A program made the position numbers and the translations under genes. 44,466 bases of DNA, taken from NCBI GenBank assembly GCA_014804365.1, contig JAAUZX010000019.1:1-44466 (forward strand), written 5' to 3'. Origin of the DNA: Lachnospiraceae bacterium (lineage in GTDB: Bacteria > Bacillota > Clostridia > Lachnospirales > Lachnospiraceae). The notes under the pieces are model-generated. The model searched no databases and was not told the origin of the DNA. It saw only the letters and a program-made list of their open reading frames with translations. Shown in pieces: positions 1,892 through 44,466 of this stretch (positions are counted from its first letter, which is position 1; each line of letters starts with the position of its first letter).

Positions 1892-2087
1892 ATTTTCGTT
1901 ATTCCTTTCCTGTGATTTCTCTTCTGATTCTATCACCGCGCACCGTAAAATACAATAAATATTCGTTTCTACATCATTTTACTTCGACATTTTGTGCCGC
2001 ACTTCGATTCTTTTCAAAATGCCTTTTGTGCAATTGGTTTTTTATATTATTTTCATGAAAATTTCATATAATCGGAGGGGCTTCGCA

Positions 2088-2116: not shown

Positions 2117-2155
2117 ATGATTCGGGTAAAAAAGGTGCATGTTATAAACTGATGT

Positions 2156-2177
2156 GGCAGATTGCACAAAATCTGCC
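2156..2177 (+). repeat. Family A solo remnant (joined terminal repeats)
   Basis: GGCAGATT-GCACAA-AATCTGCC: an 8-bp perfect inverted repeat around a 6-nt loop. The first 17 bases equal the left end of the full family A copy at 28322, and the last eight equal its right end, so it looks like the two ends of the element with everything between them missing. It lies in the leader of the following gene. Confidence 0.7.
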
Positions 2178-2235
2178 TATGAAAATTTATTGATGCGCCT
2201 TTCGACACCAAAATTATCAGACAGGGGATGATATC

Positions 2236-6160: not shown

Positions 6161-6309
6161 GGCAGATTGCGCAAAATATTCTTGAAGCCGTCCTTGCGTA
6201 GGAAAATGAGATTTTCTTAATATTGCGTCCGCCGCCATAGCCTCACCGGAATATTTAGAAAATCCATTTCCCGAAGCCCGACGCGAAAGAATATTTTGTG
6301 CGATCTGCC
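6161..6309 (+). repeat. Family A palindromic element, copy a (internally deleted, inside the gatCAB operon)
   Basis: 149 bp, in the gap between gatC and gatA. Left end GGCAGATTGCGCAAAATATT pairs with the right end (AATATTTTGTGCGATCTGCC) apart from two positions. The flanks AACTGTA (6152-6158) and TACAGTT (6318-6324) extend the pairing outward. Compared with copy b it lacks the central hairpin block: the sequence jumps from ...TTCTTAATATT to GCGTCCGCCGCC. The inner arms (6201-6224 and 6248-6272) share a T-to-A change on both sides relative to copy b. Gene transcription runs opposite to the orientation used here. Confidence 0.85.
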
Positions 6310-6643: not shown

Positions 6644-8395
6644 CTAACTTCTGATCTTAATATGCACTTCCCGAAGCTGCTGCTCCGTCACATCATTAGG
6701 CGCACCGCACATCAGATCCTGCGCCGTTCCGCTCATCGGGAACGCGATAACCTCCCTGATATTCTCCTCGTTCTTAAGCAGCATGATCATACGGTCTACC
6801 CCCGGCGCCATTCCGGCGTGTGGCGGCGCGCCGAACTGGAATGCATTGTAGAGTGCACCGAATTTATTTTTCAGAGTCTCCTCGTCATATCCTGCAATCT
6901 CAAATGCTTTGACCATAATCTCCATATCATGGTTACGAACCGCGCCGGAAGATAACTCCACACCGTTACATACGATGTCGTACTGGTACGCAAGGATCTC
7001 CAGCGGGTCCATCGTGTTCAAAGCCTCTAAACCGCCCTGCGGCATGGAAAAAGGATTGTGGGTGAAACCGATCTGCTTCGTATCCGGATCAAGTTCAAAC
7101 ATCGGAAAATCATTGATGTAGCAAAACCGATACGCATTTTTTTCCAATAAGTCAAGTTTCTGTCCCAACTCGTTGCGAATCTGCCCCGCATAATATGCCG
7201 CCCGTGCTTCCTTATCTGCGATGAAGAAGATCGTATCGCCTGCCGCCAGTCCCGCAAGGTCCGCCAGCTCACTCTTCTTTTCATCAGGAATAAACTTGTC
7301 GATGGGACCCTTGTAACTCATATCCTCCGCCACTTCCAGATATCCGAGCCCGCCCATGCCCATATCGGTGGCAAACTTCAACAGTTTTTCGTGAAATCCT
7401 TTCGACATATCCGCATGTACCCTGATTGCGCGAACTGTCCTGCCATGGAATGGCTTGAATGTGCATGCCTGGAAATATTCTGTCAGATCTATAATCCGAA
7501 GCGGGTTCCTGAGATCCGGTTTATCCGTACCGAACTCTAACATCGCCTGCTTATAACTGATGATCGGGTATGGCGCTTTGGTAACTTCATATCCCTCCGG
7601 AGCAAATTTCTCAAAGGTTGCCGAGAGCACTTCTTCACCTGCGCGGAACACATCTTCCTGCGTGGCGAAACTCATCTCGAAGTCCAGCTGATAGAATTCT
7701 CCCGGCGAACGGTCTGCTCTGGCATCTTCATCTCTGAAACAGGGAGCGATCTGGAAATATTTGTCAAAACCGGACACCATCAAAAGCTGCTTATACTGCT
7801 GCGGTGCCTGCGGCAATGCATAGAATTTACCTTTATATTTTCTGGACGGAACAATATAGTCTCTTGCCCCTTCCGGTGAAGAAGCGCACAGGATCGGCGT
7901 CTGGATCTCCAGAAATCCCATTTCCGTCATTTTTTCCCGCAGATAGGCAATCACTTTAGATCGGAATATAATGTTATCCTTCACTTTCTGGTTGCGCAGA
8001 TCCAGATAACGGTATTTCAGGCGGACATCTTCTCTCGTCTCTTTGGATGTCATGATCTCAAAAGGAAGCTGCTTGTAGACTCTGCCCAGCACATCAACCT
8101 TATGTGCCTCCAACTCGATCGTTCCTGTCGGGATTCTGGGGTTGTAGGTCTCCTCATCTCTGTGCTCGATCAATCCTTCAATGGATACGCTCATCTCTCT
8201 GGATAATCCGTCAAGCAGCGTGGTGTCACGCATAACGACCTGCAGTACGCCGTACATATCTCGCAAGTCCACAAAGGATACGCCGCCGTGATCCCTTATA
8301 TTCTCGATCCAGCCCGCCACGCGGATCTCCTTACCGATATCGGATTCGCTAATCTGTTGTAAAGTTACGTCTCTGTAGATATTTTTGTTTGTCAT
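6644..8395 (-). CDS. aspS2: Aspartyl-tRNA synthetase, second paralogue (probably non-discriminating)
   Basis: Class IIb synthetase of 583 residues with the full bacterial set: anticodon OB-fold, motif 2 ([19 protein letters not shown]), GAD insertion and motif 3 (GVDRMIMLL). The start at 8395 follows AAGGAG by about 9 nt; an in-frame extension upstream runs into palindromic element C and is not credible. H36 in IRDHGGVSF is the residue found in bacterial AspRS that also charge tRNA(Asn); discriminating enzymes such as E. coli have Leu there. Being first gene of an operon with gatCAB, under a T-box, it is inferred to make Asp-tRNA(Asn) for conversion to Asn-tRNA(Asn). Confidence 0.95.
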
Positions 8396-8436
8396 TGTAT
8401 TGGTCTCCTTTTCCATGATTATGTCCCTAGGAAACT

Positions 8437-8560
8437 GCGAATAAGCAGATTCGGAAGACTTCGTCTTCCTCATTCGCGTTGCTCGTCATAAGTCTTCCGG
8501 CTCATGCGCTCATGCAAGCATGGCGCCTGATTCGAAATCCTTCCACCTCTGCTTATTCGC
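8437..8560 (-). repeat. Palindromic element C in the aspS2 leader
   Basis: 124 bp bounded by perfect 13-bp inverted ends (GCGAATAAGCAGA at 8437-8449, TCTGCTTATTCGC at 8548-8560). Inside is a perfect hairpin, GGAAGAC-TTC-GTCTTCC, and a second copy of the GGAAGACTT motif on the other strand. It starts two bases after the T-run of the T-box terminator and ends about 40 nt before the aspS2 start, so it is transcribed in the read-through mRNA. No second copy was seen in this window. Confidence 0.7.
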
Positions 8561-8562
8561 GC

Positions 8563-8822
8563 AAAAAAGTCCCGGAACACATTTCTGTATTCCGGGACGG
8601 ATAGTTATGATTATCCGCGGTACCACCCGCATTGATAAGCCGACATCTCCGACAAGATGTTGCTTCGCCTTACCCTCTCTTAACACTTAACGCGTGTAAC
8701 GTACTGCCCTAGCGCATATCTATAGCCTCAATACTGCATACGGTTCAGGCAATCTGCTCCGGAGTGTTCCCGTTCCCTACCTTTCACAAACAGCGCTCTC
8801 AGTCGGTGACGCCGTATTCCTG
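8563..8822 (-). promoter_or_regulatory. T-box leader of aspS2-gatCAB
   Basis: tRNA-sensing transcription switch read on the minus strand. The T-box sequence GGGTGGTACCGCGG is at 8616-8629. A terminator follows: GTCCCGGAA / TTCCGGGAC stem at 8569-8598 and a six-T run at 8563-8568. At the base of stem I, AUACGG (8812-8817) pairs with CCGUAU (8738-8743). Just before the latter strand is UGAAC (8743-8747), where the specifier is expected. GAAC can be read as GAA (Glu) or AAC (Asn), both logical for this operon. I could not place every stem I motif, so the exact specifier is unproven. Confidence 0.93.
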
Positions 8823-8897
8823 TCGCTTCCCGTAAGGTGAGTCTCCTTCATTGCATTTTTGTATTTTTGTATACAATTTATATATCATACAATAAAA

Positions 8898-28243: not shown

Positions 28244-28321
28244 ACGCTCACCTCCCGTCCTGTATTTTATGTCATAGCCTTATGTCATATCGCTAAAAGA
28301 TGCCCCAATAATACCTGCATT

Positions 28322-28551
28322 GGCAGATTGCACAAAATGTTCTCGAAGCTGTCATTGCGCAGGAATATGAGATTTTCTTAATATTCCGTTCAATACCCAG
28401 CAATTTTGGGACACGGAAGTCCCAAAAAGCCCGAAATGCGCACGGACGCGCATAGAGGGCGGTTGCGTCCGCCGCCACAACTTCACCGGAATATTTTAGA
28501 AAATCCATATTCCGTAGCCCGACATAAGAGAACATTTTGTGCAATCTGCCC
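28322..28551 (+). repeat. Family A palindromic element, copy b (glnA-ANTAR gap), reference copy
   Basis: 230 bp. Perfect 23-bp ends: GGCAGATTGCACAAAATGTT... (28322-28344) and ...AACATTTTGTGCAATCTGCC (28529-28551). Inner arms at 28362-28387 and 28488-28513, each itself GGAATAT...ATATTCC, can pair locally or with each other. Central hairpin 1 is TTTTGGGAC-ACGGAA-GTCCCAAAA (28404-28427). Hairpin 2 is ATGCGC-ACGGAC-GCGCAT inside GCCC...GGGC (28429-28460). A third is GGCGG...CCGCC. No protein is encoded. Confidence 0.9.
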
Positions 28552-28595
28552 TCACAGCCTAAATACATACAGCACCATTTAACCCCCAAACTCCA

Positions 28596-33576: not shown

Positions 33577-33803
33577 GGCAGATTATGCGAATGGTTCTCA
33601 CGTGTCGGGCTCCGTCATATGGATTTTCTAAATATTCCGGAAAAATTGAGAGATGTGGACGTGACCGCCCGACATTCGCCATCCGGGCTCAGGTCGGGCT
33701 TTTGGGGACATCCGTGTCCCCAAATCGCTGGGTATCGAACGGAATATTAAGAAAATCTCATATTCCTGCGCAGGACACGTGAGAACCATTCGCATAATCT
33801 GCC
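33577..33803 (-). repeat. Family A palindromic element, copy c (kinase-transporter gap)
   Basis: 227 bp, opposite strand to copies a, b and d. The ends, GGCAGATTATGCGAATGGTT... and its exact complement, match each other over 29 bp, though they differ from the ends of copies a, b and d after the first eight bases. In element sense, inner left arm GGAATATGAGATTTTC is identical to copy b. Hairpin 1 is GGGGACA-CGGA-TGTCCCC and hairpin 2 is closed by GCCCGAC/GTCGGGC with an inner GCC-CGGAT-GGC. Confidence 0.9.
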
Positions 33804-44301: not shown

Positions 44302-44466
44302 GGCAGATTACACAAAATGTTTTCTCATGGCTTGCGCAAGAACATGAGATTTTCTTAATGTTCCGCAAGTGCCCAGCAATTTCATGGGGACCTGCTTATT
44401 ACCCTAACGAGTAAAAAGCTGATGTCCCGAAAAGCCCGAAATGCGCACGGACGCGCATAGAGGGCG
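44302..44466 (+). repeat. Family A palindromic element, copy d (cut by window end)
   Basis: Left part only. The end GGCAGATTACACAAAATGTT, inner arm GAACAT...ATGTTC (copy b has GAATAT...ATATTC, a matched change on both sides) and hairpin 2 (ATGCGC-ACGGAC-GCGCAT) are present. Hairpin 1 is enlarged: between GGGGAC and GTCCC there is an extra stem GCTTATTAC/GTAAAAAGC. It lies about 60 bp upstream of the Lhr gene. The right end is outside the window. Confidence 0.85.

Follow-up and report, generated by a model that had tools for sequence, protein, structure and literature searches.

The palindromic repeats dispersed through the analysed 44,466-nt stretch of Lachnospiraceae DNA (hereafter the window) are copies of a mobile, MITE-like element of about 300 bp, the core of which is the RNA family RF01731 (TwoAYGGAY). 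Its mobility is virtually certain. Taken together, our observations are best explained by a MITE-like palindrome with a core selected in place and with loops that may bind CsrA, a combined reading to which we give slightly less than even confidence. The initial annotation had described the copies as palindromes whose arms change together, and this observation is confirmed as real and not due to chance. It had also stated that no named family has this layout, and had counted membership in an existing Rfam family as refuting; copies b and c score over the cut-off for RF01731. The sequence family itself is thus known. New, as far as we searched the literature, are the mobile unit, its true ends, the lack of an RNA-strand preference behind its arm covariation and its selection in place.

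Copies of the element in the window

Four copies (a to d) sit at the positions first assigned to them (Table 1). Copies b (108.1 bits), c (116.5 bits) and d (67.3 bits on the full contig) exceed the RF01731 gathering cut-off of 43 bits, the model being 168 positions long; b and c match it end to end. Copy d, whose sequence was read to C19:44553 (locus L209), carries a longer hairpin in place of loop 1 and keeps only loop 2. Copy a, with both loops deleted, gives no match to the RF01731 model even at E 0.1. It is a core-deleted relative, and comparison by eye shows a full-length copy with matching flanks in genome G027 (L108), which is orthologous to L434 of G065.

Table 1. Copies, remnants and an empty site of the element in the window
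Feature	Positions	Strand	Basis or remarks
Copy b, arm to arm	28322..28551	+	RF01731 core 28355-28520, AYGGAY strand +
Copy b with outermost terminal repeats (decayed)	28284..28594	+	Best fuzzy match to consensus repeat
Copy c, arm to arm	33577..33803	-	RF01731 core 33607-33773, AYGGAY strand -
Copy a, both AYGGAY hairpins deleted internally	6161..6309	+	Sequence
Copy d, crosses window end	44302..44466	+	Core = contig C19 44332-44525
97-bp internal-deletion derivative, remnants of both outer terminal repeats	2119..2215	not assigned	Repeat matches
Empty site	1909..1917	not assigned	Full element here in G001 (L044)

The arms of copy b are perfect over 23 bp, as had been noted, and those of copy c over 30 bp rather than the 29 bp first given. 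The two pairs of arms differ from each other at many positions and each remains self-complementary. Of the single paired changes pointed out earlier, T-A to A-T in copy a represents a genuine alternative at one pair of the inner stem (columns 47/191: TA 57, AT 42 of 122). The change of ATATTC to ATGTTC in copy d is matched as well (columns 64/175: AT 105, GC 16), its partner being GGAACATT in the right half, past the window end. The GAACAT originally taken for the partner lies on the same side and is not the consensus partner; its changed base forms a C-T mismatch.

The interval assigned to the element in the initial annotation proved too small: in younger copies the GGCAGATT arms are followed further out by an outermost terminal repeat, at a distance of about 70 bp from the Rfam core. 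In copy b these repeats can be recognized at 28284-28303 on the left (9 edits) and at 28572-28594 on the right (5 edits), while in copy c the decay is too far advanced to call them (9-10 edits). The window copies are old, as follows from the decay of their outer repeats. What had been taken for a solo remnant at 2156-2177 is the middle of an internally deleted copy of 97 bp, with 5 and 4 substitutions in its two repeats. Since such repeat matches number 4 here against a mean of 2.95 in shuffled windows, the case for this derivative is carried by their paired position and by the spacer and arm sequence between them. Opposite the empty site at 1909-1917, the element in G001 has an imperfect 7-bp repeat on either side (4 of 7 bases alike); the boundaries were read by eye, the program alignment having misplaced the gap.

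Distribution of RF01731

The expectation of many copies in this and related genomes was borne out. The genome itself contains 18 RF01731 matches over the cut-off, and the first sample of the genus 122 places in 21 of 37 genomes. In a wider genus sample, 40 of 77 genomes carry RF01731, and copy numbers over the sample run from 0 to at least 31 per genome (31 candidates were scored per genome, so that the counts are lower bounds). In 24 other families of the order, sampled by one genome each, there was no match. Across the class, RF01731 is present in 36 of 391 genomes and in 23 of 222 genera, with two or more matches in 27 of the 36; these are again lower bounds, with 7 candidates scored per genome.

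For alignment we combined the 122 copies of the first genus sample with 39 of 40 stretches around high-scoring places among the matches listed; the fortieth (L450) was dropped because a contig end cuts it. Among these 161 aligned copies, GGA is found in loop 1 of 136, in loop 2 of 157 and in both loops of 135. Carriage by phages or plasmids was considered and rejected, copy b having no match in either the phage or the plasmid collection.

Some copies depart from the common form. Two in the window's own genome, G000 (L017, L018), and six in G027 (L105-L110) have cores of 193-226 nt instead of about 167 nt. The additional sequence in L017 and L018 puts a longer hairpin where loop 1 would have its AYGGAY; for the six G027 copies the comparison covered length only. 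The best-scoring copy of the genome (L001, on G000:C53) has outer arms entirely unlike those of other copies and possibly represents a separate arrival.

Ends, target duplications and mobility

Younger copies have a further inverted repeat, GGATTCGGGTGTCAAAAGG, on the outer side of the arms, which brings the unit to about 300 bp. The terminal repeats of the element in the genus are GATTCGGGTGTCAAAAG pairs, decayed in the window copies themselves. The same terminal inverted repeats (TIRs) also bound remnants of 38-107 bp, some of which retain arm sequence. Among 103 distinct TIR-bounded elements, 30 lie between exact direct repeats of 7 bp, where 0.26 are expected from mismatched flanks; with one mismatch allowed, the numbers are 46 and 2.3. 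Exact repeats of 5, 6, 8 and 9 bp occur at 0, 1, 2 and 0 of the 103. When only TwoAYGGAY-bearing copies are taken, the 7-bp repeat is exact at 7 of 37 (0.06 expected) and present with at most one mismatch at 12 (0.47 expected). The duplicated target approximates CTATAAG.

Comparison of orthologous sites points the same way. The site of copy b holds the element in G067, an internally deleted form of it in G065 and G070, and none in G001, G027, G069 and G013. For copy c, the element is present at the site in G027, G065 and G067 and absent in G090, G001 and G013; G070 has an internally deleted form. In G027 and G069 (L203, L202) the site of copy b holds another stretch of about 47 bp with ATGACATA, an inverted repeat of the flanking TATGTCAT.

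That the ends must match for mobility or gene conversion was one of two options in the initial annotation, and mobility is indeed demonstrated by the copy numbers as well as by empty sites and target duplications. The choice offered there, between selection on structure and mobility, does not hold: the element is mobile and at the same time partly conserved in place.

The core is found with other ends, too. In a genome of another family (G137), where 6 copies were fetched and the ends recognized in 5, CTGNAATTCGTAATAT forms the ends of the homologous core. Three of these five copies have direct repeats next to them, 10, 9 and 8 bp long, and the other two have shorter ones. Copies in G410 have arms of more than 100 bp and other ends again. 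Conversely, in other records the TIRs of the genus enclose long, nearly perfect palindromes whose inner sequence is unrelated (L344, L346, L359, L397, L407, L303). There is thus a wider family of fully palindromic transposons, and since the core occurs between other ends and the same TIR around unrelated insides, the core is one cargo among them and not tied to one set of ends. Insertion beside intrinsic terminators was also considered and rejected; they lie on the left side in 7 of 50 cases and on the right side in 11 of 45, with no clear side preference.

Search for the transposase

Long TIRs and 7-bp duplications suggest a transposase of the DDE type. An autonomous partner with the same ends was sought among TIR pairs 400-7000 bp apart and at DDE_Tnp_1 loci, and these candidates yielded none: neither in 8 genomes, nor among the listed TIR loci of the contig scan (stretches of up to 8 kb), nor at 22 DDE_Tnp_1 loci from 16 genomes.

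Palindromic, intergenic, high-copy sequences could alternatively be REP/BIME-type elements that depend on a RAYT/Y1 transposase for movement, and the ends in one relative (G212) look like REPs. However, a Y1_Tnp gene was found in 13 of the 30 genomes searched and was not detected in six carriers of the element (G000, G027, G065, G067, G212 and G300), several of them with high copy number, so that RAYT/Y1 transposases are not co-distributed with it, and the long TIRs and 7-bp duplications would rather fit a DDE enzyme. We therefore regard movement by a RAYT as extremely improbable. In G212, two TwoAYGGAY copies (L267, L268) have inverted copies of about GAGTCACGGGGACGGTTCTNCTGACTCA on either side, flanks which we take to resemble the REP of RAYT systems.

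Selection in place after insertion

The fate of inserted copies was followed at orthologous sites, where the copies form 23 groups. GGA, both loops taken together, shows 2 changes in 246, against 27 in 163 for the adjacent Y positions. The inner stem (25/1925) and the outer arms (129/2487) are to be compared with the unpaired core (143/1361), spacer and TIR (620/3501) and the flanks outside (1411/15298). When GGA is pooled with the Y positions, there is no difference (34/491 vs 440/6148); the effect appears on splitting them. Ruined copies could escape the Rfam model, but most copies score far above the cut-off. In the 11 groups without the four genomes known only from chosen high-scoring copies, GGA changed at 0 of 72 and unpaired positions at 71 of 402 (p=6e-6). 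We conclude with high confidence that the GGA loops and the inner stem are selected in place while the transposon ends decay. Ectopic gene conversion as the source of loop conservation is argued against by the flanking Y positions, which vary (27/163) where GGA does not.

In a purely selfish MITE, the loops and the inner stem would serve transposition or DNA folding only and inserted copies would be neutral. Recurrent internal deletions and losses agree with this, as does the decay of terminal repeats and spacers. Copies a and d and the remnants have lost one or both hairpins, so that single copies seem dispensable. The persistence of GGA loops and inner stem after insertion, while their surroundings change, nevertheless makes pure selfishness improbable, and we retain selection in place as the preferred reading.

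Origin of arm covariation

The covariation of the arms is genuine. On a tree of the 161 copies we counted 297 joint changes from one Watson-Crick pair to another on paired columns (the outer arm accounts for 198), against a mean of 9.6 for permuted partners (maximum 37 in 200 permutations) and 14-28 for slid partners; at least one joint change falls on 55 of 76 pairs. A strict test modelled on R-scape, in which an APC-corrected G-test is run over all column pairs against a tree-based null, gives the expected covariation partial support: only 5 of the 76 consensus pairs reach E<0.05, and 5 of the 6 significant column pairs lie in the structure. The strength of the signal thus depends on the statistic. 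The covarying arms fall outside the Rfam model.

Are the helices then those of a true structured RNA, held by RNA selection only, with the multi-copy spread being incidental? They do covary, and the annotation by Rfam and CaCoFold agrees with this reading, as does the G.T excess outside the long helices described below. Selection of the arms as RNA should, however, leave a preference for G.U pairs, and here the element differs from a control. The helices of the 122 copies contain 8096 Watson-Crick cells, 666 other mismatches, and 174 G.T against 202 A.C, whereas 6S RNA (22 genomes of the same genus, same pipeline) has 132 G.T and 7 A.C. Part of this contrast is due to how the structure is derived, as the 6S structure folded from the antisense strand gives 42 G.T and 75 A.C. 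The own strand folds better in 65 of 122 element copies and in 22 of 22 6S sequences, and both strands of the element give nearly the same structure. Joint transversions are frequent as well (120 of the 297 joint changes), close to the share among all changes (1646/3550). RNA selection on the arms, one of the options of the initial annotation, thus lacks the signature seen in 6S RNA.

Orthologous groups refine the picture. Their long helices show 29 G.T and 31 A.C events, while other pairs favor G.T over A.C by 25 to 2 on the AYGGAY strand (in total 54 to 33, p=0.03). Some RNA-strand selection may therefore act outside the long helices. Orthologous comparisons (n=64, not independent of each other) also contain 56 both-sided changes between Watson-Crick pairs. 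G.T and A.C counts by loose arm extension (89 and 167; genus 177 and 364; distant 69 and 42) were set aside because the extension runs into non-homologous flanks. We consider it quite unlikely, somewhat more so than pure selfishness, that RNA selection is the only force behind the helices.

The lack of strand preference together with the frequent joint transversions fits arm-to-arm copying by DNA template switching. We suggest that this process is probably important for the arms, and selection on structure may act besides it. Hairpins maintained by template switching show, in the cited passages, the same paired multibase changes between arms (PMC8794818, PMC8604942). Those texts deal with RNA genes and yeast coding genes, whereas the present case is a transposon.

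Orientation and the working strand

Tandem contexts within the genus number 65; in 54 of them the AYGGAY strand runs antisense to both neighbours and in 11 sense (p=6e-8). Of the 122 copies, 10 with short flanks, 16 orthologous duplicates and 13 with distant genes were excluded at the main cut-off of 120 aa for open reading frames; other cut-offs gave similar results (56:12, 47:9 and 36:9). Window copies a, b and c agree with the antisense orientation. No promoter or terminator was found in copy b, and in copy c there is one promoter match at chance level, so that an own promoter or terminator, too, was discarded as a candidate: neither copy has anything beyond chance. The antisense placement of AYGGAY and the lack of promoter and terminator weigh against the simple CsrA version of our model. 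Either sense insertions, which place GGA hairpins in mRNAs, are removed, or it is the complement strand that works.

If the complement strand is functional, the elements would lie between genes transcribed together and read-through mRNA would expose paired UCC loops on a long stem, which would set processing, stability or translation of the neighbours, an effect also proposed for ERIC and NEMIS, and the strand given in Rfam would be reversed. Apart from the orientation bias itself and its stability over cut-offs, this agrees with three observations. Firstly, orientation tracks local genes: all 5 copies located where regional gene direction differs follow their neighbours, which also speaks against replication direction as the cause (in that check of 24 copies, 22 had co-directional neighbours, 20 antisense and 2 sense). 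Secondly, GGA/TCC shows 0 changes in 150 in 12 groups antisense to both neighbours. Thirdly, the bias tends to increase with copy age (4:2, 11:3 and 44:7). On the other hand, the co-occurrence with CsrA described below would be left without account, in the long helices G.U is not favored on the transcribed strand, and pairs elsewhere show their G.T excess on the AYGGAY strand (the 25:2 given above). Moreover, distant genomes show no bias (10 to 6-7) and the bias is uneven by group (5:4 in G011). A functional complement strand, and with it a reversed Rfam strand, is in our opinion rather unlikely, and we continue with AYGGAY as the strand that would probably be made as RNA.

Co-occurrence with CsrA

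CsrA sites follow an A-N-GGA loop pattern in which N is free. GGA in hairpin loops, kept by selection, is expected of a CsrA-binding RNA, and both the alignment and the orthologue test show it here. TwoAYGGAY RNAs have been proposed as CsrA sponges on motif grounds, according to the cited passage (PMC4333381).

Across the class, CsrA was found in 29 of 34 RF01731 carriers, 9 of which have only matches below the Rfam cut-off, and in 14 of 44 non-carriers, some of which may be missed carriers given the 7 candidates scored per genome. The non-carriers comprise 10 listed genomes of family f1 and 34 others taken by handle number. Among carriers with a match over the cut-off, 21 of 25 have CsrA. The difference is kept outside family f1 (25/30 vs 6/34), when counted by family (10/11 vs 6/33) and in genomes of at least 2.5 Mb (19/21 vs 2/9), the last two tallies being made by eye. 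Spo0A as a control trait was found, outside f1, in 30/30 and 28/34, respectively. In the genus CsrA is nearly universal (36 of 37 genomes; all 21 carriers and 15 of 16 non-carriers) and does not discriminate there. Of the five carriers without detected CsrA, four are drafts with a CsrA-bearing genus-mate and the fifth (G419) is 98% complete. In several distant copies, moreover, the loop sequence is ACGAT and lacks GGA; both points weigh against CsrA.

RF01731 thus tends to follow CsrA across Clostridia, which supports the older proposal that CsrA binds its loops. From the loop sequence and the co-occurrence, CsrA is a plausible ligand of the paired GGA loops, with chances that we put just under one half. 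Many genomes of the genus encode, beside a 72-aa CsrA, one to three longer open reading frames, mostly of about 80-168 aa, in which a second CsrA domain scores more weakly.

A possible model and its relation to known systems

We propose the following model. The element is a non-autonomous, MITE-like transposon, its entire length being one long palindrome with two GGA-loop hairpins in the centre. In the genus it is bounded by the GATTCGGGTGTCAAAAG repeats and would be moved by a putative DDE-type transposase that makes 7-bp target duplications. Following insertion, the ends decay while selection keeps the GGA loops and inner stem, so that the core would act where it sits. The AYGGAY strand would most likely be made as RNA and its paired loops may bind CsrA, and the copies would act as dispersed sponge RNAs or as mobile CsrA sites. 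The outer arms would stay matched mainly by polymerase template switching, by which a change in one arm is copied to the other and arm sequence may drift freely between copies. The element looks like a jumping regulatory element, not only debris.

A broader version of this model is tempting, and we consider it possible but unlikely. It would see a portable module for binding CsrA (or another ligand of GGA/UCC loops), packaged between unrelated transposon ends in families of Clostridia and retained once inserted, which wires new genes into a global regulon or buffers it; besides that, covariation in the outer helices of an accepted RNA family would be largely written by template switching. Transposon-wired regulons occur in eukaryotes. 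If the CsrA link is true, then a mobile element spreads regulator-binding hairpins in bacteria, which would be a comparable case.

RF01731 TwoAYGGAY was described by Weinberg in 2010, and copies b, c and d match its model over the cut-off. The model ends inside the palindrome, whereas the element extends to the terminal repeats. Rfam types the family as Cis-reg; the discovery table, as cited, lists it as a probable RNA with 'n' for both cis-regulation and switch (PMC2864571). The cited passages on TwoAYGGAY make no mention of transposition, terminal repeats or target duplications, and in the literature on MITEs, structured RNA, Lachnospiraceae and Clostridia we found nothing describing this element by title or abstract start.

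Short non-autonomous palindromic elements, most with TIRs and target duplications, are represented by ERIC, NEMIS/Correia, RUP, RPE and YPAL; according to the cited passages, some of these elements were proposed to affect neighbouring mRNAs and orientation is crucial for ERIC (PMC2229807). The present family differs in that a conserved two-hairpin core recurs in different families between different terminal repeats, its target duplications measuring 7 bp in this genus and about 8-10 bp at three copies of G137, and that its loops are conserved after insertion. With the CsrB/RsmZ-type sponges, as described in the cited passage, it shares GGA hairpin loops, but it consists of dispersed mobile copies with two sites each and its CsrA binding is a prediction (PMC4333381).

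This gives an orphan Rfam family known since 2010 a way of spreading, real ends, a preferred target and a candidate ligand to test. Further, strong covariation of base pairs is commonly taken to prove RNA function; its combination here with little RNA-strand signature implies that G.U asymmetry should be checked first in long palindromes.

Neighbouring features in the window

Two different aspartyl-tRNA-synthetase-like genes on the minus strand (128-1936 and 6644-8473) lie, as judged by eye, on either side of gatA/gatB/gatC-like genes. A T-box leader at 8590-8860 on the minus strand (E=3.5e-13; 69.6 bits, short of the gathering score of 93) is situated upstream of the second of them.
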